Below are positions 1 through 10,147 of a stretch of 10,147 nucleotides of DNA, in pieces (the first letter of the stretch is position 1; the number at the start of each line of letters is the position of its first letter). The translations under genes and the position numbers were made by a program. The DNA comes from an uncultured Erysipelotrichaceae bacterium (lineage in GTDB: Bacteria; Bacillota_I; Bacilli_A; RF39; UBA660), in assembly GCA_902783345.1 (NCBI GenBank), contig CACZQI010000010.1, positions 1 to 10,147 of the forward strand, given 5' to 3'. Under the pieces are notes generated by a model. The model was not told where the DNA came from. It was given only the letters and a program-made list of their open reading frames with translations, and did not search any database.

Positions 1-696
1 ATACCACCATTTATGATTCATAGTGATGTTGTAACTGGAGTTATGTCTTTTCCTGAAATGGAAGCCATGATGTATAAAATTGAAGGTGAAGATTTATATT
101 TAATTGGAACATCTGAGCATTCAATGATTGGAAGATTTAAAGGCCAAATGGTTAAAAAAGAAGATTTACCAATTAGAATGACTTCATATTCACCTTGCTT
201 TAGAAAAGAAGGTGGTTCTCATGGTCTAGAAGAAAGAGGTTTGTACCGCGTTCATCAATTTGAAAAGCAAGAAATGATAGTTCTATGTGAACCAGAAGAT
301 TCTATGAAATATTATGAAGATATGTGGAAATATACAGTTGAAGTCTTTAGAAATATGGATATTCCTGTTCGTGAACTTGAATGCTGTTCTGGAGATTTAG
401 CAGACCTTAAAGTAAAATCTTGTGATATTGAAGCATGGAGCCCAAGACAGCAAAAGTATTTTGAAGTTGGCTCATGTTCTAATTTAGGCGATGCTCAAGC
501 AAGAAGACTTGGAATTAGAGTAAAAGGAGAAAATGGTAATTACTATTTACATACATTAAATAATACTGTTCTTGCTACTCCAAGAGGACTTATCGCTTTA
601 TTAGAAAATAATTATAATGCTGATGGTAGTGTAACTATTCCAAAAGTATTAAGACCTTACATGAATGGTTTAGAAAAAATTGAAATTAAGAAGTAG
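1..696 (+). CDS. serS: Seryl-tRNA synthetase, C-terminal catalytic part (5' end outside window)
   Basis: Class II aminoacyl-tRNA synthetase that charges tRNA-Ser with serine in the cytosol. The frame is open from base 1, so about 231 residues are visible; the N-terminal tRNA-binding coiled coil and motif 1 lie upstream. Seen here: a serine-site motif TSEH (109-120), class II motif 2 PCFRKE (193-210) followed by RVHQFEKQEM, the segment CCSGDLADLKVKS, a SCSNLGDAQARR segment, and class II motif 3 around 559-609 with its invariant Arg at 583-585. The end, IPKVLRPYM, is typical of SerRS C-termini. Several signatures differ from the usual Bacillus enzyme, which from memory has TAEV and CTGDLG where this one has TSEH and CSGDLA, so it looks like a divergent SerRS lineage. 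Stop TAG is at 694-696, inside the terminator stem. Identity as SerRS is secure; the sub-lineage is inference. Confidence 0.93.
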   Translation: MPPFMIHSDVVTGVMSFPEMEAMMYKIEGEDLYLIGTSEHSMIGRFKGQMVKKEDLPIRMTSYSPCFRKEGGSHGLEERGLYRVHQFEKQEMIVLCEPEDSMKYYEDMWKYTVEVFRNMDIPVRELECCSGDLADLKVKSCDIEAWSPRQQKYFEVGSCSNLGDAQARRLGIRVKGENGNYYLHTLNNTVLATPRGLIALLENNYNADGSVTIPKVLRPYMNGLEKIEIKK

Positions 697-715
697 AGAA
701 ATCTGCTTCTTTTTT
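688..715 (+). terminator. Intrinsic terminator of serS
   Basis: A 10-bp stem (688-697 with 702-711, one G-T pair) closed by a GAAA tetraloop (698-701) and followed directly by a T run. The serS stop codon forms part of the 5' arm, so the coding end and the terminator are merged. Confidence 0.88.
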
Positions 716-758
716 AACACTTTTAAATTAGGCACATATACTATTTTAGGTGAGATAG

Positions 759-995
759 ATGGATGATAATTTATTTGAAAAAGTAGAAAAGAAAACTAAT
801 GTTGATAAGGATACTATTATATCTTTAGCGCATATGGTAGAAGAAAATGGTTTAAAGGATGAAAAAACTTTAAGAGAAGTTATATCTAAATTAAGTAAAA
901 TGACTGGTAAGGATGTAAGTCCTGAACTTGAAAATAGGATAATAAATACAGTAATGGAAGATAAGGTACCTAATAATATTGATTCATTATTTTAG
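759..995 (+). CDS. spoVIF: SpoVIF-like small sporulation protein
   Basis: A 78-residue acidic, soluble, helical protein with no membrane segment. Its pattern (FEKVEKKTNVDKDTI, a KDEKTLREVISKLSKMTGK segment, then a KVP motif near the C-terminus) matches my memory of the stage VI sporulation protein F family. In Bacillus subtilis that protein is made late in the mother cell and is needed for spore coat maturation. Length agrees with the family (about 80-90). ATG 759 is chosen because AGGTGA (748-753) sits five bases upstream. The gene is monocistronic between two terminators, as expected for a separately timed sporulation gene. A sigma-K-like -10 match nearby is too close to the start to be convincing. 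Family call from recognition, not from a search. Confidence 0.75.
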   Translation: MDDNLFEKVEKKTNVDKDTIISLAHMVEENGLKDEKTLREVISKLSKMTGKDVSPELENRIINTVMEDKVPNNIDSLF

Positions 996-999
996 TATA

Positions 1000-1013
1000 T
1001 AGTTTATAAACTA
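1000..1013. repeat. Perfect 14-bp palindrome downstream of spoVIF
   Basis: TAGTTTATAAACTA reads the same on both strands. It lies four bases after the spoVIF stop and ten bases before the terminator stem. It could be a protein site or only an AT-rich chance palindrome; no function is claimed. Confidence 0.35.
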
Positions 1014-1022
1014 CTTTACATC

Positions 1023-1050
1023 AAATGTGTCAAATGGCACATTTTTTAAT
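1023..1050 (+). terminator. Intrinsic terminator of spoVIF
   Basis: AAATGTGTC (1023-1031) pairs with GGCACATTT (1036-1044) around an AAAT loop, with one G-T pair, and runs into T residues and a further AT-rich tail. It separates spoVIF from the mraZ promoter. Confidence 0.88.
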
Positions 1051-1068
1051 TTTGATTAAAATTTATTA

Positions 1069-1100
1069 TTGATATTTTATCCTTAATATTGTAATATAAT
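1069..1100 (+). promoter_or_regulatory. Probable sigma-A promoter of the mraZ (dcw) operon
   Basis: A TATAAT -10 element lies at 1095-1100. TTGATA at 1069-1074 is 20 bases upstream of it, which is long; the overlapping TAATAT at 1092-1097 gives a 17-base spacer instead. Either choice starts transcription at about 1104-1107, just upstream of the MraZ-box repeats. The exact -10 is ambiguous. Confidence 0.65.
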
Positions 1101-1132
1101 GGTAGACGGTGGCATGATGTGGAAGAAAGTGG
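1096..1132 (+). promoter_or_regulatory. MraZ operator: GTGG boxes with exact 10-bp period
   Basis: Seven-base units ACGGTGG (1106-1112), GATGTGG (1116-1122) and AAAGTGG (1126-1132) repeat with an exact 10-base period. A weaker unit ATAATGG (1096-1102) is in the same register over the -10 element. MraZ is known to bind tandem TGG-type direct repeats with this spacing upstream of its own gene (studied in E. coli and mycoplasmas), so this is very probably the autoregulatory site. The last box merges with the purine-rich ribosome binding region of mraZ (G run 1131-1135). Confidence 0.8.
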
Positions 1133-1141
1133 GGGATTAAA

Positions 1142-1582
1142 ATGTTAATGGGTGAGTTTCATCATAATATTGATGATAAAGGTAGGCTTATAATTCCAGC
1201 TAAATTCAGATATGAATTAGGGGAAAAATTTGTTATTACTCGTGGACTTGAAAAGTGTTTATTTGTTTATTCTCTTACTGAATGGGAAAAGATAATTAAA
1301 CGTTTAAAATCCTTACCATTTACTAATAAAGATGCTCGTAATTTTACAAGATTCTTCCTATCAGGCGCTGCAGAATGTGAGTTCGATCGTCAAGGTCGAA
1401 TAAACATTACCTCCCCACTCGTGCATTACGCCGATTTGACCAGTAAATGTGTGATAATCGGCGCTAATGACCGATTAGAAATATGGGCTGAGGATAATTG
1501 GGATACTTTCTTTAGTGAAAATGAGGATAGTCTAGCCGAAATTGCTGAAAATTTATTTAAGGATAGTTATGAAACATTATAG
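1142..1582 (+). CDS. mraZ: Transcriptional regulator MraZ
   Basis: A 146-residue DNA-binding protein of the AbrB-like fold, first gene of the dcw operon and its expected autorepressor. Two MraZ repeats are visible, each with a DxxGR core: [13 protein letters not shown] near residues 11-23 and DRQGRINI near residue 85. The block [14 protein letters not shown] is highly characteristic of the family. Length equals the usual 143-150. ATG 1142 matches the family start (MFMGEY in Bacillus, MLMGEF here) and follows the GTGGGGG sequence. The 3' end overlaps rsmH by 14 bases. Roughly 1371-1475 contains many C- or G-ending codons, unlike the rest of the window, and holds a strong inverted repeat listed separately. 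Confidence 0.96.
1429..1463. repeat. Perfect 8-bp inverted repeat inside mraZ
   Basis: CGCCGATT (1429-1436) and AATCGGCG (1456-1463) are perfect complements separated by 19 bases. They lie in a locally GC-rich part of mraZ, so the mRNA could form a stable hairpin there. No U tract follows, so it is not a terminator. Confidence 0.5.
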
Positions 1583-2492
1583 TGTATTAAAAAAAGAACT
1601 AATTGATGGTTTAAATATTAATCCTGATGGAATTTATGTTGATTGTACGCTTGGCTATGCAGGTGACGCTAAAGAAATATTAAGAGAGTTAAAAAGGGGC
1701 TTTCTTTTCGCCTTTGATAGAGATGAAGACGCTATAAACTATAGCGCTAATGAACTATCAAAAATAGGAAATAACTTTAAAATTATTCATGCAAATTTTA
1801 GTGATTTAAAAGAAAAACTTGCAAGTGAAGGTATAACTAAAGTAGATGGATTTATCTTTGATTTAGGATTATCTAGTCCTCAAATTGATGAAAAAGAACG
1901 TGGTTTTTCGTTTCAAAGTGATGCTACTTTAGATATGCGAATGGATAAAAAAAGTTCACTAACGGCTAAAATGATTGTAAATACTTACTCTTATGAAGAA
2001 CTTGTTCGTATTTTTTATAAGTATGGTGAAGAAGATTTTTCGAAACCAATTGCTAAAAAAATAGTTGAAGTAAGAAGTAAAAAAGAAATTGAAACAACTT
2101 TAGAATTAGCTCAAATAATTAAAGAAGCAGTTCCTGTTAAATACTATCTTAAAAGTCATCCTGAAAGACAAATATTTCAAGCAATTAGAATTGAAGTTAA
2201 TGATGAATTAAGATCAATTGAAAAAGCCTTAAATGACGCAATTGATATGCTAAATATTGGCGGTAGAATATGCGTTATTAGTTTTCATTCATTAGAAGAT
2301 CGTATTGCTAAAAATATTTTTAAAGAAAAAAGTGAAATTAATCCTTTAGTTAAAGGTTTACCAGTTATTCCAGATGACTATAAGCCTTTAATTAAATTAA
2401 TTAATAAAAAACCTATTTTACCTAGTGAAAAAGAAATAGAGGAAAATAGTCGAAGCAAAAGTGCAAAATTAAGAATAATTGAAAGGGTATAA
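1569..2492 (+). CDS. rsmH: 16S rRNA (cytosine(1402)-N(4))-methyltransferase RsmH
   Basis: SAM-dependent enzyme that N4-methylates C1402 in the ribosomal P site; 307 residues, normal for RsmH/MraW. Seen in order: [10 protein letters not shown] start, SAM-binding motif I region [11 protein letters not shown], acidic [19 protein letters not shown], the block [61 protein letters not shown], and the C-terminal [15 protein letters not shown] 1569 is used because it matches family N-termini and has AAGGAT at 1559-1564; an in-frame ATG at 1542 would add nine residues without homology. The SAM loop reads GYAGDA where most family members have GGAGHS. Overlaps mraZ by 14 bases, suggesting translational coupling. 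Confidence 0.96.
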
Positions 2493-2496
2493 AATT

Positions 2497-2784
2497 ATGA
2501 AAACAAGAAGAAGAGTAAAATTATATAAAACAGATAAATTTATGATTAGTCTAATTTTATTTTTATTAGTACTAAGCCCAGTTGTTATTGTTTATTCTAA
2601 AAGTGTTTTATCTAAAAGTAATATTGAAGTAGAAAGAATTAAAAACAAAATTGAAAAACAAGAAACAATTAATGAAAGTATTTCAATGAAGATAAATGAA
2701 TTAGCATCACTTTCAAATATTCAAGATGTTGCAAAAAATTATGGATTAACATATCAAAATGATAATATAATTGTGGTAAAATAA
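2497..2784 (+). CDS. ftsL: Cell division protein FtsL-like
   Basis: A 95-residue bitopic membrane protein: basic cytoplasmic start (MKTRRRVKLYK), one transmembrane helix at about residues 15-35, then a heptad-like coiled coil (about 40-75) outside the membrane and a short tail. This is the FtsL/DivIC architecture; in the divisome FtsL pairs with DivIC and DivIB and helps activate the septal PBP. Sequence conservation in this family is low, so the call rests on size, topology and position between rsmH and the PBP, which is the standard dcw order. ATG 2497 follows GAAAGGG (2481-2487); a TTG at 2479 is in frame but has no better site. Confidence 0.85.
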   Translation: MKTRRRVKLYKTDKFMISLILFLLVLSPVVIVYSKSVLSKSNIEVERIKNKIEKQETINESISMKINELASLSNIQDVAKNYGLTYQNDNIIVVK

Positions 2785-2800
2785 TAAAAGGTGATATTAA

Positions 2801-4960
2801 ATGAAAAAAGCAAGCAAAAATATAAGAGTTAATAGATTTACAATTATTTGCTGTGCTTTTTTATTTGTCTTAATAATTGCTAAACTCTTATATGTTGCAG
2901 TATCTCCTAAAGTAGATGGAATAGATTTAAAGACTTTTGCTTTATCAAGAACAACTGCTAATAAAACAATTGAAGCTAAAAGAGGCACTATTTATGATAT
3001 TAATGGTGAAGTTCTAGCGCAAGATGTTCGAAGCTATACTGTTATCGCATATTTAGCCGAAAGTAGAACTAAAAATCCAGATAAACCTCAACATGTTGTT
3101 GATAAAAATATGACAGCTGAAAAACTAGCTCCAATTTTAAATATGAGCAAAGAAAGCATTTTAAAAAGATTAAATATGGAAGGCTTATATCAAGTTGAAC
3201 TTCGTCCAGGTGGATTAAATATTACGGAACTTAAAAAACAAGAAATTGAAGCCTTAGATTTACCTGGTATTGATTTTATTAAAGGAAGTAAAAGAGATTA
3301 TCCTAATGGAGATTTTGCTTCTCATATTATTGGTTATGCTAGAAAACTAGACGGTGAAGAGATCAATGGGGAACTTGGTATTGAAGCCAAATATAATACT
3401 GAATTAAAAGGTACGGATGGGAAAATAACATATCAAAAAGATGCTTATGGATATAAAATTGCTAATACTCCTGAAGTAATTGAAGAAGCTGAAGATGGCT
3501 ATGATATTTATTTAACGATTGATAATAATATTCAATTATATTTAGAAAACGCAATTGATAAATTAGAAAATTTAGGTATGGAGTGGGCAACTATTACAAT
3601 TGCTGATGCTAAAACTGGCGCTATTGTAGGTTCAGCATCTAGCCCTAGTTTTAACCCTAATACATTAAATATCACTAATTATAATAATCCTCTTACTAGT
3701 TATGCATATGAACCAGGTTCAACAATGAAAATATATTCTTTTATGGCAGCTATTGAAGAAGGCGTTTATAATGGTGATGAAAAATACTCATCTGGTTCCA
3801 TTCCAGTTGATCAATTTACTATTAATGACTGGAATAAAAAAGGATGGGGTTCAATTACTTTTGATAGAGGTTTTACTTATTCATCAAATGTTGCGGCTGT
3901 ATTACTTTCTAAAAAACTTGGTAAAGATAAATTATATGAATACTATAAAAAATTTGGCTTTGGTGATAAAACAGGTATTGAGCTTTCCAATGAATATACT
4001 GGTAAAATAAGTTTTACCTATAACTCAGAAATAGCAAGTGCTTCTTTTGGACAAGGTATTACTACCACACCAGTACAAAATATAGAAGCTCTTACTTCTA
4101 TTACTAATAAAGGAATTGTTTTAAAACCATATATCATTAGTAAAATAGTTAATCCATCTACTAATGAAATTATTTATGAAGGACAAAGAACTGAATTAGA
4201 CCGTGCAGTAAGTGAAGAAACAGTTAATAAAATAATTGATTTAATGGATCAAACGGTTAATTCTGAAGATACAGCAGTAACCGGATATAAATATCATACA
4301 AATGCCGTTAGATTAATTGGCAAAACCGGAACTGCTCAGTATACAACTGCAAGTGGTAGATATTCATCAGGTACTTATAATAATATTCGTTCTTTTGCGG
4401 GAATATTTCCTAAAGATAATCCTGAATATATTATTTATTTATCTATTAAAAGATTTGCTAATGCTTCAAATAAAATGGGGGAAGTCGTAAAAGAAGTAGT
4501 TGAATCAGTTGCTAAATATAAAAATTTATCTGATAAAGAAACAACGGAAGATATTAGTAAAATATATACTGTCGATAGTTTTATTAATAAAAATGTTAAA
4601 ACTAGCGTAGAAAAACTAGAAAAAGCAGGATTAAAACCAATTGTTATTGGTAATGGCGATAAAGTAATTAAACAGTATCCTACTAAAAAAATGAGCGTTT
4701 TAGAAGGAAGTAAAGTTTTCCTTTTAACCAATAGTGATACATATACTATGCCTAAAATGATTAACTGGACTAGTAGTGAAGCAATAACATTTGCTAATTT
4801 AGTTCATTTATCTTATAATATAGATGGATATGGGAAAGTTAACAAAACTTCAATAAATGTTGGAGAAGAATTAACTAACGATATGGTTTTAGAAATAGTT
4901 TTAGGAGGTACGGTTAATGAAGAAAGAGAAAATGGAGACGAGGAGAGTAAAGAGAATTAA
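2801..4960 (+). CDS. pbpB: Class B penicillin-binding protein with C-terminal PASTA domains (PBP2B/SpoVD type)
   Basis: Monofunctional transpeptidase that cross-links septal peptidoglycan; 719 residues. One N-terminal membrane anchor (about 13-33), then the PBP dimerisation domain containing KRGTIYDINGEVLA (about 60-240), then the transpeptidase domain with all three active-site motifs: STMK (Ser307, Lys310), SSN (361-363) and KTGT (508-511). Two C-terminal PASTA-like domains follow (about 588-648 and 649-708), a combination shared by PBP2B and SpoVD of Bacilli. AAAGGTGAT (2787-2795) precedes the ATG. The last 44 bases overlap the next gene. Bacillus has pbpB and spoVD in tandem here; only one copy is present in this window, so it could be either, or serve both division and spore cortex formation (inference). 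Confidence 0.93.
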   Translation: MKKASKNIRVNRFTIICCAFLFVLIIAKLLYVAVSPKVDGIDLKTFALSRTTANKTIEAKRGTIYDINGEVLAQDVRSYTVIAYLAESRTKNPDKPQHVVDKNMTAEKLAPILNMSKESILKRLNMEGLYQVELRPGGLNITELKKQEIEALDLPGIDFIKGSKRDYPNGDFASHIIGYARKLDGEEINGELGIEAKYNTELKGTDGKITYQKDAYGYKIANTPEVIEEAEDGYDIYLTIDNNIQLYLENAIDKLENLGMEWATITIADAKTGAIVGSASSPSFNPNTLNITNYNNPLTSYAYEPGSTMKIYSFMAAIEEGVYNGDEKYSSGSIPVDQFTINDWNKKGWGSITFDRGFTYSSNVAAVLLSKKLGKDKLYEYYKKFGFGDKTGIELSNEYTGKISFTYNSEIASASFGQGITTTPVQNIEALTSITNKGIVLKPYIISKIVNPSTNEIIYEGQRTELDRAVSEETVNKIIDLMDQTVNSEDTAVTGYKYHTNAVRLIGKTGTAQYTTASGRYSSGTYNNIRSFAGIFPKDNPEYIIYLSIKRFANASNKMGEVVKEVVESVAKYKNLSDKETTEDISKIYTVDSFINKNVKTSVEKLEKAGLKPIVIGNGDKVIKQYPTKKMSVLEGSKVFLLTNSDTYTMPKMINWTSSEAITFANLVHLSYNIDGYGKVNKTSINVGEELTNDMVLEIVLGGTVNEERENGDEESKEN

Positions 4961-5462
4961 AGGCTTTTTAAAGTCTTATAAACCTGTCTTAATAGTGCTT
5001 ATTATTTTACTTGTTGTAGTAATGAGTTATTCAAATTATTTACTTAAATCAACTAAAGTATATACTTTTAGTGGTAAAGGTGATTACGTTAAAATAAATA
5101 ATGGTGTAGTTAGTTTAAATTATGATGTTAATTTATTAAATGGTAGTGATATTACATATATTAAAGAAAAAGATATCGTCGTAGTTGATTATAAAATTGG
5201 TTATTATGTTAAAGATGGTGATAATTTATTATCTTTGTTAGTAGTAGAAGATGCTGATAAAGAAGGTTTATCTTTAAAGAAAGTTTTAGAAGGAACTAAT
5301 ACATTTAATTTAAATGAATTAAATAGTAATCATAAATTCTTTAGTAAAGAAAAGATTGAACTTTTAAATAATGGTTTATACTTTACTATTGAAGCCAAAG
5401 ATAAAAAAGGTAAAGAAATTAAAGATATTACTAAATTAGACTTAATTAAACTTACAAAATAA
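4917..5462 (+). CDS. Unrecognised single-pass membrane protein following the PBP gene
   Basis: A 181-residue protein I do not recognise. Its start is strongly basic (KKEKMETRRVKRIK), then one transmembrane helix at about residues 23-42 and a roughly 135-residue extracytoplasmic part with alternating hydrophobic and polar residues suggesting beta structure; no cysteines or catalytic motif are apparent. A perfect AGGAGG (4903-4908) lies eight bases before ATG 4917, among the best ribosome sites in the window, so the 44-base overlap with the PBP is real and the two are likely co-translated. Position suggests a partner of the divisome or of the PBP, but it is too short for DivIB/FtsQ and no POTRA-like pattern is evident. 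It is the last gene before the terminator, so the dcw cluster ends here. Confidence 0.8.
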   Translation: MKKEKMETRRVKRIKGFLKSYKPVLIVLIILLVVVMSYSNYLLKSTKVYTFSGKGDYVKINNGVVSLNYDVNLLNGSDITYIKEKDIVVVDYKIGYYVKDGDNLLSLLVVEDADKEGLSLKKVLEGTNTFNLNELNSNHKFFSKEKIELLNNGLYFTIEAKDKKGKEIKDITKLDLIKLTK

Positions 5463-5463
5463 A

Positions 5464-5487
5464 CAAATTTTAGATTTTTAAAATTTG
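5464..5487 (+). repeat. AT-rich hairpin after the membrane-protein gene
   Basis: CAAATTTTA (5464-5472) pairs with TAAAATTTG (5479-5487) around a 6-base loop, one base after the stop codon. It stacks directly ahead of the next hairpin and may protect the mRNA 3' end or support termination. Confidence 0.5.
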
Positions 5488-5489
5488 CT

Positions 5490-5532
5490 AGCAATCCCAG
5501 TAATAATGCAGGATTGCTTTTAATTTTTTATT
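5490..5532 (+). terminator. Intrinsic terminator ending the mraZ-PBP operon
   Basis: AGCAATCC (5490-5497) pairs with GGATTGCT (5511-5518) around a 13-base loop and is followed by a T-rich tract (5519-5530) that runs into the -35 box of the next promoter. Confidence 0.85.
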
Positions 5533-5559
5533 GACAAAAAATACTCATAATTATATAAT
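5531..5559 (+). promoter_or_regulatory. Consensus sigma-A promoter for the small-peptide gene
   Basis: TTGACA (5531-5536), 17-base spacer, TATAAT (5554-5559): both hexamers and the spacing match the housekeeping consensus exactly. Transcription would start near 5566, giving a leader of about 77 bases before the 25-residue peptide gene. Confidence 0.92.
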
Positions 5560-5597
5560 TAATCATGAGCGGAAGTTTGGCGCTGATTTCATCTTTT

Positions 5598-5625
5598 CAA
5601 AATAAAATCTTTTGATTTAATTTTG
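5598..5625 (+). promoter_or_regulatory. Leader hairpin immediately upstream of the peptide ribosome binding site
   Basis: 5598-5609 pairs with 5614-5625 (12 positions, one A-A mismatch) around a TTTT loop. The 3' arm ends one base before GAAGGAG (5627-5633), so folding or unfolding could control ribosome access. A second weaker stem (AGCG with CGCT, roughly 5567-5584) is also possible near the 5' end of the leader. Confidence 0.6.
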
Positions 5626-5642
5626 GAAGGAGAGTGATAAGT

Positions 5643-5720
5643 ATGAAGCAAAGTAGTTTCTACAAAGTTGTAATACTCTCGCTGTTATTTATATTAATAA
5701 TTGTATTATTAAATAGATAA
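5643..5720 (+). CDS. 25-residue hydrophobic membrane peptide, candidate type I toxin
   Basis: A 25-codon gene from ATG 5643 to TAA 5718-5720. It begins MKQSSFYKVV, continues as an uninterrupted run of about 15 Leu/Ile/Val/Phe-type residues, and ends in Asn-Arg: one short transmembrane helix with charged ends. GAAGGAG (5627-5633) is a strong ribosome site nine bases upstream. It has its own consensus promoter, a structured leader, and a convergent antisense RNA covering its 3' untranslated region. Size, composition and layout resemble type I toxins of the TxpA, holin-like or Ibs kinds, with no sequence match claimed. It might instead be a small membrane regulator. That it is translated is well supported; toxicity is inference. 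Confidence 0.72.
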   Translation: MKQSSFYKVVILSLLFILIIVLLNR

Positions 5721-5722
5721 TC

Positions 5723-5747
5723 AAAAAGGCACAACCGAAGTTGTGCC
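5723..5747 (-). terminator. Perfect UUCG-capped terminator of the antisense RNA
   Basis: On the minus strand GGCACAAC pairs with GTTGTGCC around TTCG (8 bp, no mismatch; plus positions 5728-5747), followed by TTTTT (plus 5727-5723). On the plus strand the same hairpin lacks a T tract, so it terminates only the antisense transcript. Confidence 0.9.
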
Positions 5748-5759
5748 GACACAACCGAA
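5730..5759 (+). repeat. CACAACCGAA direct repeat giving two mutually exclusive hairpins
   Basis: CACAACCGAA occurs at 5730-5739 and 5750-5759 with GTTGTG (5740-5745) between them. GTTGTG can pair with the upstream copy (8-bp stem, 5728-5747) or the downstream copy (6-bp stem, 4-base loop, 5740-5755), but not both. The same choice exists in the antisense RNA. Confidence 0.7.
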
Positions 5760-5805
5760 AAGGTGAGGTCGGCCACTTGGGGGTCTTCCACTCTTTTCAT
5801 TTATT
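5757..5805 (+). terminator. Weak candidate terminator of the peptide mRNA
   Basis: GAAAAGGTG (5757-5765) pairs with CAC and CTTTTC (5789-5798) with one bulged T; the tail after it is only moderately T-rich. It would end the plus transcript within the antisense promoter region. Imperfect, so readthrough into spoIIB is possible. Confidence 0.35.
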
Positions 5806-5834
5806 ATTATATCAATATTATTTTTATTTATCAA
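5806..5834 (-). promoter_or_regulatory. Minus-strand sigma-A promoter for the antisense RNA
   Basis: Read on the minus strand: TTGATA (plus 5829-5834), 17-base spacer, TATAAT (plus 5806-5811). One mismatch to consensus and ideal spacing. It points back toward the peptide gene. Confidence 0.85.
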
Positions 5835-5842
5835 ATAAAAGT

Positions 5843-5876
5843 GACAATAATAGACAAAGTTCTTTATTAGATTGTC
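5843..5876. repeat. Bulged inverted repeat upstream of spoIIB
   Basis: GACAAT (5843-5848) is complementary to ATTGTC (5871-5876), extended inward by AATA with TATT across a two-base bulge. It ends 22 bases before the spoIIB start and could be an operator or an mRNA hairpin. No convincing promoter was found for spoIIB here. Confidence 0.35.
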
Positions 5877-5898
5877 GTATGATAATTTTGGTGATGAT

Positions 5899-6333
5899 AT
5901 GAAAAAATTTCTTCCTTATATCTTTTCTTTAATAGTTGGTTCAGTCTTTGGCTTTTTACTTTTCAATAGTAAAGATATTGATATACCAGTTTTTAAAGAA
6001 AATATTAAAGCAACTGGGTTTCAGCTTGGAGTATTTAATTCTTTAGATTTAGCTAAAGAATATACTAATAAATATCCTAGTTCGATTATAATTAGTGAAG
6101 ATGATGTTTATAGAGTATATATAAGCATTTTAACTAATAATAGATGTATAAGTAAAATGGAAGATTATTTAGATAAACAAAAAATAGCCTATTATAAAAA
6201 AGATATTATGATAAGTGATAGAGGGCTTATTAAAGCACTAACAAATTATGAAAATACTATGTTAGAAGGTAATACTGATACATTTATTAGTATAAATAAA
6301 TTAATTATGGATAGTTATGGGGGAAATGTATGA
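5899..6333 (+). CDS. spoIIB: SPOR-domain membrane protein, SpoIIB-like
   Basis: A 144-residue protein with one N-terminal transmembrane helix (about 4-23) and an extracytoplasmic domain. Residues about 41-103 fit a SPOR domain, which binds denuded peptidoglycan: FQLGVFNS, then a helix with AKEYTNKYP, then IISEDDVYRVYISI. In Bacillus subtilis SpoIIB is a SPOR-domain protein active at the sporulation septum and engulfment, and its gene lies just upstream of maf and radC. Here the gene overlaps radC by 4 bases (ATGA), so position strongly backs the name. ATG 5899 is preferred with GGTG at 5890-5893; an in-frame TTG at 5872 lacks a ribosome site. It is much shorter than the Bacillus protein, and orthology is inferred from domain plus synteny. 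Confidence 0.7.
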   Translation: MKKFLPYIFSLIVGSVFGFLLFNSKDIDIPVFKENIKATGFQLGVFNSLDLAKEYTNKYPSSIIISEDDVYRVYISILTNNRCISKMEDYLDKQKIAYYKKDIMISDRGLIKALTNYENTMLEGNTDTFISINKLIMDSYGGNV

Positions 6334-7013
6334 GATTAAAAGAACTACCAAAAGCCGAAATGCCAAGGGAAAGACTTATTAAATATGGTGCTTCTAATTT
6401 AAGTAATGAAGACTTAATATCAATTTTAATTAGAACGGGAAACAAAGATGAAAACGTTAAAGAATTAAGTAGTAAAATACTTAGCAAAATTAAAAGTATA
6501 AGTTCTTTAAATGATTTAGGATTAAGAGAACTTACTTCTATTAAAGGAGTAGGGAGAGCTAAGGCCTTAACTATTCTTGCTGCTATTGAACTTGGCAAAA
6601 GAGTAAGTAATGTAAGTATTGAAGATAAAGTAGTTTTAACTAATACCGATAAAGTACATGAATATTTTTCATCTTTAATTGCGAATGAAAAACAAGAAAA
6701 TTTATTAGTCATTTTATTAGATAATAAAAATAGATTAATTAGTTATAAAATTATGTTTAAAGGAACAAATAATGAGTCTATCGTAGATATTAAAGAAATA
6801 TTTAACTATGCTATTAAAGAAAGGGCTGATAGACTTATCATTATGCATAATCATCCATCAGGTATGGTTGAACCAAGCAAGTCCGATATTGAACTTACCA
6901 ATAAAATAAATCTAAGTGGTAGGATTATTGGCATTCCTTTAGTCGATCATTTAATTACTAATGGTATTAAATATTATAGTTTTTATAAGGAACTAAATAA
7001 AAATGAAGCCTAA
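6330..7013 (+). CDS. radC: RadC family JAMM/MPN-domain protein
   Basis: A 227-residue protein; Bacillus RadC is about 231. The N-terminal part has a helix-hairpin-helix DNA-binding motif (TSIKGVGRAKALTI, about residues 70-83). The C-terminal JAMM metalloprotease-like domain carries HNHPSG (His173, His175) followed by Asp186 in KSDIELT, the expected zinc ligands, plus an upstream NLLVILLD strand. Despite its name the family's function is unsettled, and a direct role in DNA repair is not established. The start overlaps the spoIIB stop (ATGA) and the end overlaps mreC by 11 bases, so these genes form one transcription and translation unit. In Bacillus mreB follows radC; here it does not. Confidence 0.95.
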   Translation: MRLKELPKAEMPRERLIKYGASNLSNEDLISILIRTGNKDENVKELSSKILSKIKSISSLNDLGLRELTSIKGVGRAKALTILAAIELGKRVSNVSIEDKVVLTNTDKVHEYFSSLIANEKQENLLVILLDNKNRLISYKIMFKGTNNESIVDIKEIFNYAIKERADRLIIMHNHPSGMVEPSKSDIELTNKINLSGRIIGIPLVDHLITNGIKYYSFYKELNKNEA

Positions 7014-7626
7014 TTATCTACTATATTTAACATTATTTCTTTTAATTATTTTTCGCACCTGTTTTATAAATATGGTTAATAATTTAGGGGTAATGTTTTT
7101 TAATGATAAAGATGAATTACAAGTAAAAGTCTTAAATGATAAAATTAAATCTTTAGAAACTGAGTACGCTGCTTTAGTAGATTTTAAAAATAATATTAAT
7201 ATAAAATCTAATTATACATTAACTAATCTTTATATGAATAACTATAGCTTTGATAAACTATTAATAAATGGTGATAACTATCAAAAAGGTGATGAAGTAA
7301 TAAGTGTGGAAGGCCTTATTGGGATTATTTATAAAACATACCTTAATTATAGTGAAGTATCTTACATTTATGATACAAAATTACCAGTTAAAATAAATAA
7401 TAATGAAGGTAAAATAATCGGTAAAGATGATGATAATAATTTAATAGTTAAAGAACTAACTAATTATAATGATATATCTTTAAATGATAAAGTCTTAAGC
7501 ACTAATAATACTTATATTGGTAAAGTAATTAAAATAGATAAATCGGCCTTAGATACAATCGTAAAAGTTAAAACAGTTGATATGAAAAATATTCATTATG
7601 TAGTAGTAATAAGTAGGCAAATATGA
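7003..7626 (+). CDS. mreC: Rod shape-determining protein MreC (short)
   Basis: A 207-residue bitopic protein; Bacillus MreC is about 290. A transmembrane helix near residues 5-25 is followed by a short coiled coil (about 35-62, including LNDKIKSLETEYAAL) and a beta-rich extracytoplasmic region with MreC-like features: a LLINGD segment, KGDEVIS, then GLIGIIYKTY and, later, LNDKVLSTN...YIGKVIKI. MreC scaffolds the elongasome between MreB, MreD, RodA and PBP2. Position after radC and before mreD supports the call, because the sequence itself is divergent. The coiled coil and C-terminal portions are shortened relative to Bacillus. AAGGA (6987-6991) is a rather distant ribosome site, so coupling to radC translation is likely. 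Confidence 0.82.
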   Translation: MKPNYLLYLTLFLLIIFRTCFINMVNNLGVMFFNDKDELQVKVLNDKIKSLETEYAALVDFKNNINIKSNYTLTNLYMNNYSFDKLLINGDNYQKGDEVISVEGLIGIIYKTYLNYSEVSYIYDTKLPVKINNNEGKIIGKDDDNNLIVKELTNYNDISLNDKVLSTNNTYIGKVIKIDKSALDTIVKVKTVDMKNIHYVVVISRQI

Positions 7627-8018
7627 TTTTAGATTTTCTTTCTTTAAATTTAACCAATATTTTATTATGCTCAGTTTTAGTTAATATTTTTTATTTAACT
7701 GATAAAAAGGTTTACTTTATTTTAGGTATTGATATCTTACTTAATGGAATACCATTTACAACTATTTTAATTATTCTTTTATATTATTTAAATAACTTTA
7801 TTTTTAAATTTATAAGTAAAAGTTTTTTAACTAAATATCTTTTAATTATTATTTATTATTTATTATTTAATATTATCCTTTATAGTATTTTTCATACCTT
7901 TGATTTTTATATTATCAAATATGCTTTTAATAATTTAATTTATAACTTAATCTTTTACTTTATTAGTATAAAATATTTAGATGATAAATATAATTTAGAA
8001 GGTGAAACTTATGGATAA
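7623..8018 (+). CDS. mreD: Probable MreD, integral membrane protein
   Basis: A 131-residue, extremely hydrophobic protein rich in Leu, Ile, Phe and Tyr, with about four to five membrane helices. MreD is the polytopic member of the elongasome and is normally about 160-170 residues, so this is a short version. The segment GIDILLNGIPFTTILIILLYY is MreD-like. The call depends mostly on position: the start overlaps the mreC stop by 4 bases (ATGA) and the end overlaps the spoIVFA-like gene by 8 bases. No separate ribosome site is obvious, in keeping with coupled translation. Its extreme AT content forces this amino acid composition, so similarity searches may be weak. Confidence 0.72.
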   Translation: MILDFLSLNLTNILLCSVLVNIFYLTDKKVYFILGIDILLNGIPFTTILIILLYYLNNFIFKFISKSFLTKYLLIIIYYLLFNIILYSIFHTFDFYIIKYAFNNLIYNLIFYFISIKYLDDKYNLEGETYG

Positions 8019-8559
8019 GAAAAAATATATTAAATCATTATTTACTAGAGTTTTAATTAGTATTATTTTATTTTTAAGTATCTCTATCTTTGTTAATTCA
8101 AGTGATAAGAATTTATTACTTTTTAAAAATAACATTTATGATAAAACTTTTAAGTTTACTAAAGTGTCTAATTGGTATAATAAATATTTTGGTGATATTG
8201 TTAAAAAGCCTAGTATTGAAAAAGTAGTTGCAGTAAATAAGGAACTAACATATACCAATTATGAGAAATTCAAAGATGGCGTAGAACTATATGGAGTAGA
8301 TGCAGTATATCCTTTTAAAAGTGGGATAGTAGTTTATATTGGGGAAAAAGAAGGATATGGAAGCACAGTTATTATTCAAGGAATGGATGGTATAGATTAT
8401 TGGTATGCTAATATAGATAATTTAAGTGTTAAATTATATGATTATGTTGAATCAGATAATATTATTGGAGAATCTAAAGATAATAAGTTATATTTAGTCT
8501 TTATGAAAGATGGTAATACTTTAAATTATGAAGATTTTTTAGAGAAAAAGGAAAATTAA
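8011..8559 (+). CDS. spoIVFA: SpoIVFA-like membrane protein with degenerate LytM/M23 domain
   Basis: A 182-residue protein: basic N-terminus, one transmembrane helix (about 13-30), a linker, then an M23/LytM-like domain (about 90-170) with AVYPFKSGIVVYIGEKEGYGSTVIIQ and YWYANIDNLSVKLYDYVESDNIIGES. The metal-binding residues of active M23 enzymes are missing: the usual HLHF strand reads LYLVF and no HxxxD is seen, so this is a non-catalytic fold. B. subtilis SpoIVFA is such a protein: it anchors and regulates SpoIVFB in the outer forespore membrane. Placement directly before the SpoIVFB-like gene supports this role. ATG 8011 has AAGGTG (7999-8004); a GTG at 8002 is part of that ribosome site. 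Confidence 0.8.
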   Translation: MDKKKYIKSLFTRVLISIILFLSISIFVNSSDKNLLLFKNNIYDKTFKFTKVSNWYNKYFGDIVKKPSIEKVVAVNKELTYTNYEKFKDGVELYGVDAVYPFKSGIVVYIGEKEGYGSTVIIQGMDGIDYWYANIDNLSVKLYDYVESDNIIGESKDNKLYLVFMKDGNTLNYEDFLEKKEN

Positions 8560-8580
8560 AGGTCTTTTTTCTTTTTATTT
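8543..8580 (+). terminator. Weak AU-rich hairpin between spoIVFA and spoIVFB
   Basis: 8543-8552 can pair with 8563-8572 (10 positions, mostly A-T with one G-T) around a 10-base loop, followed by TTTTATTT. At best a leaky terminator or attenuator; it could make the two subunits unequal in amount. Confidence 0.3.
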
Positions 8581-8602
8581 AAATATATTTATAAAGAGTA
8601 TT

Positions 8603-9346
8603 ATGAAAATAAGCATTAATCCGATAACCTATTTTTTACTTTTAGTTATTTTATTATGTGGTTATTTTAACTATTTTTTAATTATAAGTATTATTTTATT
8701 TATTCATGATTTAGGTCATTTAATCATTTTAAAATTATTAAATATAAAAGTTGATAGTATTGAGATATTACCATTTGGAAGTCTTATTAATACAAATATA
8801 AGTTATAACATAAAAAGTATATATTTATTTTTAATATCTACTAGCGGTATTTTAATGCAAATGGTGCTTTATCTTATTTTCTATCTTTTATTTTCTTATA
8901 GTTTAATAAGTGATTTATCATATAATATTTTTATAATTTATAATAAACTTATTATTATCTTTAATTTACTACCTATAATTCCTTTAGATGGCTCTAAAAT
9001 CTTATTTAGTTTACTTGAAAATATCATTAGTTATAAAAAGTGTTTAATTATTATGAATATTATTAGTATTATATCAATTATCATCTTTATCTTTATTAAT
9101 ACAATGAACCTTAATTTATTATTAATTAGTTTCTTTTGTTTATTTAAAACTTACCTTGAAATTGCTAATCATGCCTTTATTTTTAATAAATTTTTACTAG
9201 AAAGATATATCTATCATTATAAATATAAAAAAGTTAAAAATGTTGGCTCTATTAAAAATATTTACAAAAATAGATTAAATTTTATAAATAATGAGAGAGA
9301 AGATAAAATTCTTGCGAAAATATTTGACATTGGAAGGTATTTTTGA
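8603..9346 (+). CDS. spoIVFB: SpoIVFB-like intramembrane metalloprotease (M50, site-2 protease family)
   Basis: A 247-residue polytopic membrane protein of the S2P/M50B type. In Bacillus subtilis SpoIVFB sits in the outer forespore membrane and cleaves pro-sigma-K. Seen here: the zinc motif in the second hydrophobic segment reads HDLGH (His35, Asp36, His39) instead of HExxH, and the third zinc ligand lies in NLLPIIPLDGSK (Asp129), as in the family. Several further membrane helices follow (to about residue 185), then a basic C-terminal domain of roughly 60 residues, probably the CBS-like part in reduced form. The Glu-to-Asp change affects the catalytic base. The ribosome site is weak (AAAGAG, 8593-8598), hinting at low or coupled expression. 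The next promoter overlaps its 3' end. Confidence 0.88.
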   Translation: MKISINPITYFLLLVILLCGYFNYFLIISIILFIHDLGHLIILKLLNIKVDSIEILPFGSLINTNISYNIKSIYLFLISTSGILMQMVLYLIFYLLFSYSLISDLSYNIFIIYNKLIIIFNLLPIIPLDGSKILFSLLENIISYKKCLIIMNIISIISIIIFIFINTMNLNLLLISFFCLFKTYLEIANHAFIFNKFLLERYIYHYKYKKVKNVGSIKNIYKNRLNFINNEREDKILAKIFDIGRYF

Positions 9347-9352
9347 TATTAT
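9324..9352 (+). promoter_or_regulatory. Sigma-A promoter of the rplU-prp-rpmA operon
   Basis: TTGACA (9324-9329), 17-base spacer, TATTAT (9347-9352). The -35 box lies inside the last codons of spoIVFB. Transcription should start near 9359, giving a leader of about 92 bases. Confidence 0.88.
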
Positions 9353-9358
9353 CTAGTT

Positions 9359-9450
9359 GTTTGTAATTAATTTATAAACCGCACTAAAAAGGTAAAAAGT
9401 TGGGTATCCACACCTTCAAGGCGAGTCCTAAAAAAGATGGGAGGAAATTA
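9359..9450 (+). promoter_or_regulatory. Probable L21 leader (ribosomal protein autoregulatory 5' UTR)
   Basis: A leader of about 92 bases precedes rplU. It contains AACCGCAC, a GGGTATCCACACC block, CCTTCAAGGCGAGTCC, and then GGGAGG. AAGGT (9390-9394) can pair with ACCTT (9412-9416) enclosing TGG-GTAT-CCA, and CCTT with AAGG makes a competing small stem. Position, size and these blocks resemble the L21 leader RNA found upstream of rplU in Bacilli. Recognised from memory, not searched. Confidence 0.6.
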
Positions 9451-9750
9451 ATGAAAGCTATATTTGTAACTGGTGGAAAACAATACTATGTTGCTGAAGG
9501 CGATACTATCTATGTAGAAAAGTTAGACGCTAAAGAAGGCGAAACTGTTGATTTTGATACAGTACTTGCTGTTGGTGAAAAAACTGGTACTCCATATGTA
9601 AGTGGCGCTAAAGTAACTTGTGAAGTCGCAAAACATGGTAAACAAAAGAAGATTATTGTTTTCAAATACAGACCTAAAAAGAAATATCGTAAAACTCAAG
9701 GTCATAGACAACCTTATACTAAACTTGTAGTTAAGAAAATAGTTGGTTAA
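9451..9750 (+). CDS. rplU: 50S ribosomal protein L21
   Basis: A 99-residue ribosomal protein that binds 23S rRNA near L20; Bacillus L21 is 102. Characteristic blocks: [18 protein letters not shown] at the start, then [13 protein letters not shown], the rRNA-contacting basic region [21 protein letters not shown], and the C-terminal [11 protein letters not shown] 9451 is chosen over an in-frame TTG at 9400 because GGGAGG (9439-9444) is six bases upstream and the N-terminus matches the family; the upstream region belongs to the leader RNA. It is the first gene of the rplU-prp-rpmA operon, with codon use richer in optimal codons than the neighbouring membrane-protein genes. Confidence 0.98.
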
Positions 9751-9751
9751 T

Positions 9752-10048
9752 ATGATTAAAGTTAAACTAGGTGAAAATAAAATAGTTATTAAAGGACATG
9801 CAAACTTTGATAATTATGGTAAAGATATTGTTTGTGCGGCAGTATCATCAATTGTAACTGCTAGTGTAAATGATATGCATATAGTTAATCCTAAGGGTTT
9901 AAAATATACTGATGATGGAGAGGCTATTACAATTGAAATAATTCAAAATGATGAATTATTAAATAAGTTATTAAATAATCTTAAAGAATTATTAATTAAT
10001 TTGGAAGAAGATTATCCGAAAAATATAAAAGTTGAAAGGGAAGGATAA
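9752..10048 (+). CDS. prp: Ribosomal-processing cysteine protease Prp
   Basis: A 98-residue protease (YsxB family) that removes the N-terminal extension of ribosomal protein L27 in Firmicutes. The signature GHANFDNYGKDIVCAAVSS is intact, with His16 and Cys28 separated by 11 residues as in the Staphylococcus aureus enzyme (His22 and Cys34). ATG 9752 starts one base after the rplU stop and has no clear Shine-Dalgarno of its own, so translation is probably coupled to rplU; a TTG at 9743 inside rplU is in frame but less likely. Its place between rplU and rpmA is the conserved arrangement, and rpmA in this window carries the matching cleavable extension. Confidence 0.95.
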   Translation: MIKVKLGENKIVIKGHANFDNYGKDIVCAAVSSIVTASVNDMHIVNPKGLKYTDDGEAITIEIIQNDELLNKLLNNLKELLINLEEDYPKNIKVEREG

Positions 10049-10049
10049 A

Positions 10050-10147
10050 ATGTTATTTATAAAATTAAACATTCAACGTTTTGCTCATGTTAAAGCACAG
10101 GGTTCTACACAAAATGGTAGAGATTCTGAAGGACGTAGATTAGGTGC
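10050..10147 (+). CDS. rpmA: 50S ribosomal protein L27, 5' part (runs off window)
   Basis: Thirty-two complete codons are visible. The N-terminus MLFIKLNIQRFAHVKAQGST is followed by QNGRDSEGRRLG, the highly conserved L27 segment near the peptidyl transferase centre. Firmicute L27 is made with a short extension ending at a LNLQFF-A site that Prp cleaves; here the equivalent is LNIQRF followed by Ala, so the mature protein would begin at Ala12. The extension is two to three residues longer than in Staphylococcus, and the P2 position is Arg instead of Phe. AAGGA lies at 10041-10045, one base after prp ends the ATG begins. Confidence 0.95.
   Translation, partial: MLFIKLNIQRFAHVKAQGSTQNGRDSEGRRLG

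Follow-up and report, generated by a model that had tools for sequence, protein, structure and literature searches.

A probable new family of type I toxin-antitoxin modules with a predicted end-to-end closed mRNA in uncultured Bacilli

Organization of the locus

The DNA analyzed here, referred to as the window, comprises 10,147 nucleotides (nt) of an uncultured Erysipelotrichaceae bacterium (assembly GCA_902783345.1, contig CACZQI010000010.1, forward-strand positions 1-10,147). Between a gene of 181 codons, downstream of a penicillin-binding protein gene, and a gene of 144 codons, upstream of radC, lies an intergenic region of 436 nt. It holds a block with a short open reading frame (ORF), two convergent promoters and a minus-strand terminator. 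Sequence comparison indicates that this block probably belongs to a family of type I toxin-antitoxin modules not described so far. Its parts, with lengths of peptides given in amino acids (AA) and UTR standing for untranslated region, are as follows:

5477-5530: upstream hairpin with the arms AGCAATCC (5490-5497) and GGATTGCT (5511-5518), followed by a T-run
5531-5559, plus: promoter of the peptide mRNA, TTGACA-17-TATAAT, 12/12 consensus positions, sigma-A type
5566-5797, plus: putative peptide mRNA of about 232 nt, its ends placed from the -10 element and from the T-run past the closing stem
5567-5598, plus: 5' leader with the 5' arms of the closing stem, from fold prediction and covariation across ten copies
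5625-5632, plus: Shine-Dalgarno (SD) region GGAAGGAG, read upstream of the ORF, with a predicted mean unpaired probability of 0.27
5643-5720, plus: ORF of 25 AA, MKQSSFYKVVILSLLFILIIVLLNR, putative membrane toxin, ATG at 5643 and stop at 5718-5720
5757-5793, plus: 3' arms of the closing stem, the predicted common target of leader and antisense RNA, from prediction and covariation
5723-5799, minus: putative antisense RNA (antitoxin) of about 77 nt, whose complementarity to the mRNA is confined to the 3' UTR
5723-5747, minus: antisense terminator, an 8-bp stem with UUCG loop (5747-5728), then TTTTT
5806-5834, minus: antisense promoter, TTGATA-17-TATAAT with extended -10 (TGA), 11/12 consensus positions

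An initial annotation made from the sequence alone had described a gene for a hydrophobic peptide of 25 residues behind an exact consensus promoter, faced by a minus-strand promoter whose RNA ends in a UUCG terminator. These parts were confirmed: the ORF starting at ATG 5643 gives 25 AA, the plus promoter matches the consensus in 12/12 positions, the convergent TTGATA-17-TATAAT at 5834-5806 matches in 11/12 with TG before the -10, and the 8-bp stem with five U residues lies at 5747-5723 on the minus strand. The overlapping antisense RNA gene thus has, as read in the sequence, its own promoter and terminator. Of the RNA of roughly 79 nt proposed there, the terminator just past the stop was retained, and the length was corrected to about 77 nt (approximately 5799-5723) without overlap with the ORF. 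Because the terminator lies just past the stop codon, the antisense RNA is limited to the 3' UTR. The start of the unit at 5531 was not upheld, since in the alignment of ten copies the conserved unit begins earlier, with the hairpin at about 5477-5530.

Promoter-like sites are common in this part of the window, with 14 found in positions 5000-6300 versus 10.7 in shuffled sequences (standard deviation 2.6). In first-order Markov simulations of the 436-nt region (n=3000), a 12/12 plus promoter occurred five times, a minus promoter scoring 11/12 or better 62 times, and both together once. Within 5000-6300, the scan found a single terminator-like site, which is the antisense terminator (mean of 0.2 in shuffles). 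The hairpin at 5477-5530 and its T-run were read by eye and were not flagged by the terminator scan. This hairpin is aligned in all ten copies and therefore belongs to the repeated unit instead of merely ending the transcript of the gene before it; it is perhaps an insulating terminator.

Conservation and distribution

The block is not unique to the window and recurs in many related genomes by blastn and by covariance model. The nearest relative found is Erysipelotrichaceae bacterium RUG12877 (contig CACZRB010000032.1, here L036), with 85% identity in the penicillin-binding protein. There, the block sits between the same two genes as in the window, despite an ORF of 538 codons inserted beside it. 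This copy encodes the peptide MKNREKILYTIIISLLFIIIAILFKY, has both promoters, and its terminator hairpin is identical to that of the window. With blastn, eight copies were found in the genome of L036 (G001), one of them truncated at the 5' side, and two strong copies in a second genome (G002). All relatives with record information are metagenome-assembled genomes, several of them from animal guts.

The window and nine close copies were combined into one alignment (A1), from which the 5'-truncated copy L093 was excluded. An ORF of 24-26 AA is present in 10/10 aligned copies, as is a plus promoter matching at least 10/12 consensus positions, and the minus -10 is TG-extended in all ten by a score that favors TG. 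Across the ten copies compared, the block thus retains its ORF, the promoter on either strand and the minus terminator; together with the covarying closing stem described below, these conserved parts are what is known by sequence comparison.

For the more distant copies, 51 places were dissected into modules. A script called a short ORF in 48 of them (the places dropped were L138, L106 and L111), and 45 of these also had a hairpin next to an A-run, the terminator of the minus strand, and a tail; L136 and L147 had no hairpin by the rule applied, and the tail of L118 was too short. L093 was excluded here as well, and the dissection covers these 51 places and not the later model matches, namely 34 places of a second set and further places from the G217-family draw described below. 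Over the 45 modules, the best promoter scores average 9.87 (plus) and 9.90 (minus) versus 7.87 and 7.91 in shuffles, with a score that favors TG before the -10.

The truncated copy L093 (L093:1475-1630) lacks the 5' half and retains the terminator and promoter region of the antisense RNA; it is possibly an orphan antitoxin. Neighboring copies lie about 0.4-0.5 kb apart in several genomes (G023, G217, G037, G211 and that of L113).

A DNA search of the family matched 5/193 genomes, namely G001 and four others in which the matches are short and partial. A covariance model (R1) was built from the ten copies, and its matches were taken at E-values up to 0.001, these E-values being rough. R1 matched 21/40 and 16/35 genomes in two sets drawn from a penicillin-binding-protein search, i.e. 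37/75, where the 75 include the source genomes G001 and G002 and one unrelated genome, which had no match. Of 40 genomes drawn from the family of G217, several of them shared with the earlier sets, 19 matched. In a phylum-wide draw with the same filters, the model matched only G001 itself and 0/38 other genomes, and with stricter filters 0/40 others, which are mostly the same genomes as the 38.

RNA structure

The leader is predicted to pair with the stretch of 3' UTR covered by the antisense RNA, a new feature which the initial annotation had missed. Over 5566-5805, the mRNA of the window folds with a z-score of -6.07 relative to shuffles, and that of L036 with -8.81. These folds, far more stable than those of shuffles, are owed to pairing of roughly the first 30 leader bases with the 3' UTR, namely 5567-5575 with 5785-5793 and 5590-5598 with 5757-5765. 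The outer stem of the window carries one mismatch, C5570/A5790.

This closing stem is supported by covariation in the ten-copy alignment. Changes on both sides are seen in 10/53 pairs, and 95.4% of the cells are paired, falling to 46-58% when one strand is slid by 1-3 columns. On four of five measures, 0/500 shuffles were as high; on the fifth, the number of further pair types, 53/500 were. The antisense terminator stem has both-sided changes in 3/8 pairs.

Distant groups retain the leader/3'-UTR pairing with different letters. Over the 45 modules, the duplex of the leader with its own tail averages -34.3 kcal/mol versus -17.3 kcal/mol with non-cognate tails; it is better than with all non-cognate partners in 42/45, and in 41/45 no shuffle of 300 equals it. 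Six distant copies (group A4), retrieved by R1 and not used in its building, fold to the same closing stem with 13 + 15 pairs. Here the pairs are mostly invariant, with one pair changed on both sides and a slightly unfavorable RNAalifold covariation term of +0.56.

Inside the closed mRNA, the ribosome site is predicted to pair locally, with the leader or with the ORF, its median probability of being unpaired amounting to 0.17 over the 45 modules, and its pairing with the tail is predicted to be near zero on average. T-rich sequence follows the closing stem by eye in several groups, and at least 4 U of 8 were found in 24/45 modules by script. The stem ends set by the script ran into A/T-rich flanks, so that the closing stem is at most a possible intrinsic terminator of the mRNA.

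Two further elements were observed in the RNAs. A run of at least four G is present in the leader or tail of 28/45 modules and might seed antisense pairing. A small hairpin with a GAAA-type loop (CAAG/CTTG or GAAG/CTTC stems) is found by pattern near the likely antisense 5' end in 15/45 modules, for example in L146, L148, L112 and L105; it is absent from the window.

Peptide and family searches

The peptides of the 45 modules are 18-30 AA long, with a median best 15-AA hydropathy of 3.56 and a median net charge of +2. By sequence, they are small hydrophobic membrane peptides, as is general for type I toxins. For the window peptide, the proportion of synonymous differences (pS) is 0.41 and 0.26 and that of nonsynonymous differences (pN) 0.09 and 0.07 relative to L087 and L088, and purifying selection on the peptide is clear relative to these two nearest copies.

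As the initial annotation had said, the peptide has no family that can be named. No Pfam, NCBIfam or PHROG family matched the peptides above its cut-off, the best being Sec61_beta with an E-value of 0.034 and 14.6 bits versus a cut-off of 27. No toxin family was matched in Pfam or NCBIfam, and no Fst family is listed up to E 10 in the Pfam search, in both cases with filters that drop most matches above E 0.1. In Rfam, which includes RatA, no family reached the gathering threshold for the region, and RatA is not among the nine matches up to E 10. Searches of literature listings and extracts turned up no such system for these uncultured Bacilli. The novelty of the family is therefore drawn from the family searches and these literature listings.

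Neighboring genes and further candidates

The name radC is supported by Pfam. For the gene of 144 AA on the near side of it (window 5899-6330), which had been named spoIIB, no Pfam match above the cut-off was found, and the name is not supported. The close copies are flanked by longer ORFs. ORFs with the N-terminal motif GVTYAYF, GITYAYF or GLSYAYF adjoin several module copies in G001 (L036:9742-11358; L090, L091, L092, L093); they are SipW/TasA-like by eye only. In L036, one such ORF separates the block from the upstream gene as an insertion that the window lacks.

Control by LexA was rejected because a LexA box, searched with a Bacillus-like consensus, occurs in only 3/45 modules (L114, L115 and L148), which is too few. 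In these three, the box-like GAACAAATGTTT or GAACAAGTGTTT lies upstream of the ORF and by eye adjoins the plus -10. A phage or plasmid origin was likewise rejected. No record covers 80% of the block, with 13% and 15% in the best listed places, and two exact core patterns of the module were not found in viral contigs.

Proposed mechanism

According to our reading of the block as a type I module, the plus transcript would encode the membrane peptide of 25 AA as the putative toxin, and the minus transcript of about 77 nt would be a cis-antisense antitoxin, fully complementary to the 3' UTR of the mRNA. The leader of the mRNA would pair with the same 3' UTR and thereby close the transcript end to end. 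Since the SD region would be paired locally, to the leader or to the early part of the ORF, translation would be low until the fold is disturbed. The antisense RNA most likely acts mainly through a duplex that would be cut by RNase III, as RatA does on txpA. This duplex at the 3' end with subsequent decay is the first choice because the antisense location is the same as in the systems of B. subtilis. The transcripts, the toxicity, the role of RNase III and the order of events are what we infer.

Several points weigh against this reading. The hydrophobicity of the peptides in the distant hits is partly a matter of choice because the script that chose their ORFs favored hydrophobic ones. The pooled pN/pS over the ten copies is only 0.64, which indicates modest selection, and for L087 versus L089, L090 and L091 pN is above pS, without purifying selection there. 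Three of the 45 modules, all of one group, fail to beat all non-cognate partners in the duplex comparison, most modules had only eight such partners after single-linkage grouping, and the comparison is inflated because the model hits were partly selected for pairing. The putative antisense RNA of the window alone folds poorly (z-score of -1.68), with its terminator hairpin outside the minimum-energy fold. Finally, removal of the tail is not predicted to open the ribosome site, whose accessibility rose in 13 of the 45 modules and fell in 12; an opening by 3' trimming, as in hok or aapA, was rejected on these numbers.

Comparison with known systems

Like txpA/RatA and bsrG/SR4 of Bacillus subtilis, the module has a small membrane peptide (PMC6562991). 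RatA acts through decay by RNase III, and SR4 additionally tightens a helix that masks the ribosome site (PMC6562991). The module shares with txpA/RatA the 3' location of the antisense RNA (about 5799-5723, with the stop at 5718-5720). However, complementarity in the two B. subtilis systems amounts to 100 to 140 bp (PMC6562991), whereas it is about 77 nt and confined to the 3' UTR here. The module further differs from both in its shorter peptide, the lack of a family match and the end-to-end stem of leader and 3' UTR, and no phage or plasmid copy of it was found.

A stable long-distance interaction between the 5' and 3' ends of the toxin mRNA, which the module has by prediction and covariation, is known from aapA/IsoA of Helicobacter pylori and from hok/Sok (PMC6733600). 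In aapA, which is also present in several chromosomal copies, this interaction keeps the message silent (PMC6733600). There, however, the SD is buried in this long-distance stem and becomes accessible on trimming of the 3' end (PMC6733600), whereas neither is predicted for the module. Sok acts on the 5' region of its target (PMC6562991), while the antisense RNA of the module covers the 3' UTR. The initial annotation had likened the block to TxpA/RatA. Its assignment to type I is strengthened by the kept parts, the recurring block and the absence of a known family, and the 3' antisense location fits. It lacked the multi-copy distribution as well as the leader/3'-UTR pairing, a feature that brings the module nearer to hok and aapA. 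IsoA, like Sok, acts on the 5' region, in this case of the aapA mRNA.

Ibs/Sib of Escherichia coli resembles the module by description in its very short, almost wholly hydrophobic peptide and its multiple copies, and differs in the antisense position and the RNA structure. The par system of Enterococcus (fst/RNA II) also has convergent promoters and an mRNA of about 230 nt, with the SD in an intramolecular helix and the 5' end sequestered (PMC7472228). Unlike par, the module has only a minus-strand terminator and no bidirectional one in the scan of 5000-6300, no general direct repeats of the DRa/DRb kind, and a peptide that is not Fst-like.

Alternative explanations

The most serious alternative concerns how the antisense RNA works. 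It might act as a refolding switch similar to BsrG/SR4, taking the 3' UTR away from the leader, so that a stretch of the freed leader complementary to the SD masks the ribosome site. We regard this as possible but doubtful, as it is supported partially overall and weakly for the window itself. Without the tail, the leader is predicted to gain over half a pair with the SD in 33/45 modules and to lose as much in none, but such a gain is expected on removal of any competing strand, and overall accessibility of the SD is unchanged on average. Complementarity of the leader to its own SD beats shuffles (p<0.05) in 20/45 modules, yet for the window p is 0.60, and when a consensus SD is taken instead, only 7/45 modules exceed shuffles. 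In the distant group A4, a hairpin of the leader lies directly beside the SD and shows both-sided changes in 3/4 pairs.

It is unlikely that the small peptide, instead of being a toxin, serves as a regulator or signal in the membrane, with the antisense RNA tuning it. This explanation gains from the toxicity being putative and from some copies adjoining ORFs that share the GVTYAYF-like N-terminus. However, type I toxins usually are short hydrophobic peptides encoded in many copies per genome and accompanied by convergent antisense RNAs. Clostridioides difficile is an example of such multi-copy type I toxins (PMC6563280).

Even less probable is a system of the par/Fst kind, in which the antisense RNA would pair at the terminator and, via a direct repeat, at the ribosome site. 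The promoters are indeed convergent, and pairing of the antisense RNA with the SD beats shuffles (p<0.05) in 11/45 modules, including 7/10 close copies. For the window, though, p is 0.82 for this pairing and 0.34 for the direct repeat of SD and tail. This repeat is significant in only 2/45 modules, and par-like direct repeats were rejected as not general. In addition, the hairpin lacks a T-run on the plus side, and no match to Fst was found.

That the unit is a non-coding mobile repeat resembling a miniature inverted-repeat transposable element (MITE), with ORF and promoters incidental, is hardly credible: it is repeated and intergenic, but the ORF is intact in the ten close copies aligned, distant relatives have a common architecture and not common letters, and only imperfect A/T-rich inverted repeats lie near the ends, e.g. 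5457-5475/5811-5829 (74%), target-site duplications not having been searched.

Implications

The preferred type I reading can be extended, more tentatively, to the lineage. The copies may form a large lineage-specific type I superfamily built on one RNA design, in which leader and antisense RNA compete for a shared 3' UTR, so that the antitoxin amounts to a copy of the leader that acts in trans; copies would then diverge into private pairs while the design is kept. The genes of type I systems are too short for ordinary annotation, which makes such systems difficult to detect. The module supplies a searchable RNA signature, which reaches copies with diverged letters in uncultured Bacilli. It also joins two regulatory ideas that usually stand apart, a 3'-UTR antisense RNA and a toxin mRNA predicted to be closed end to end, and the many copies per genome offer natural experiments on specificity.
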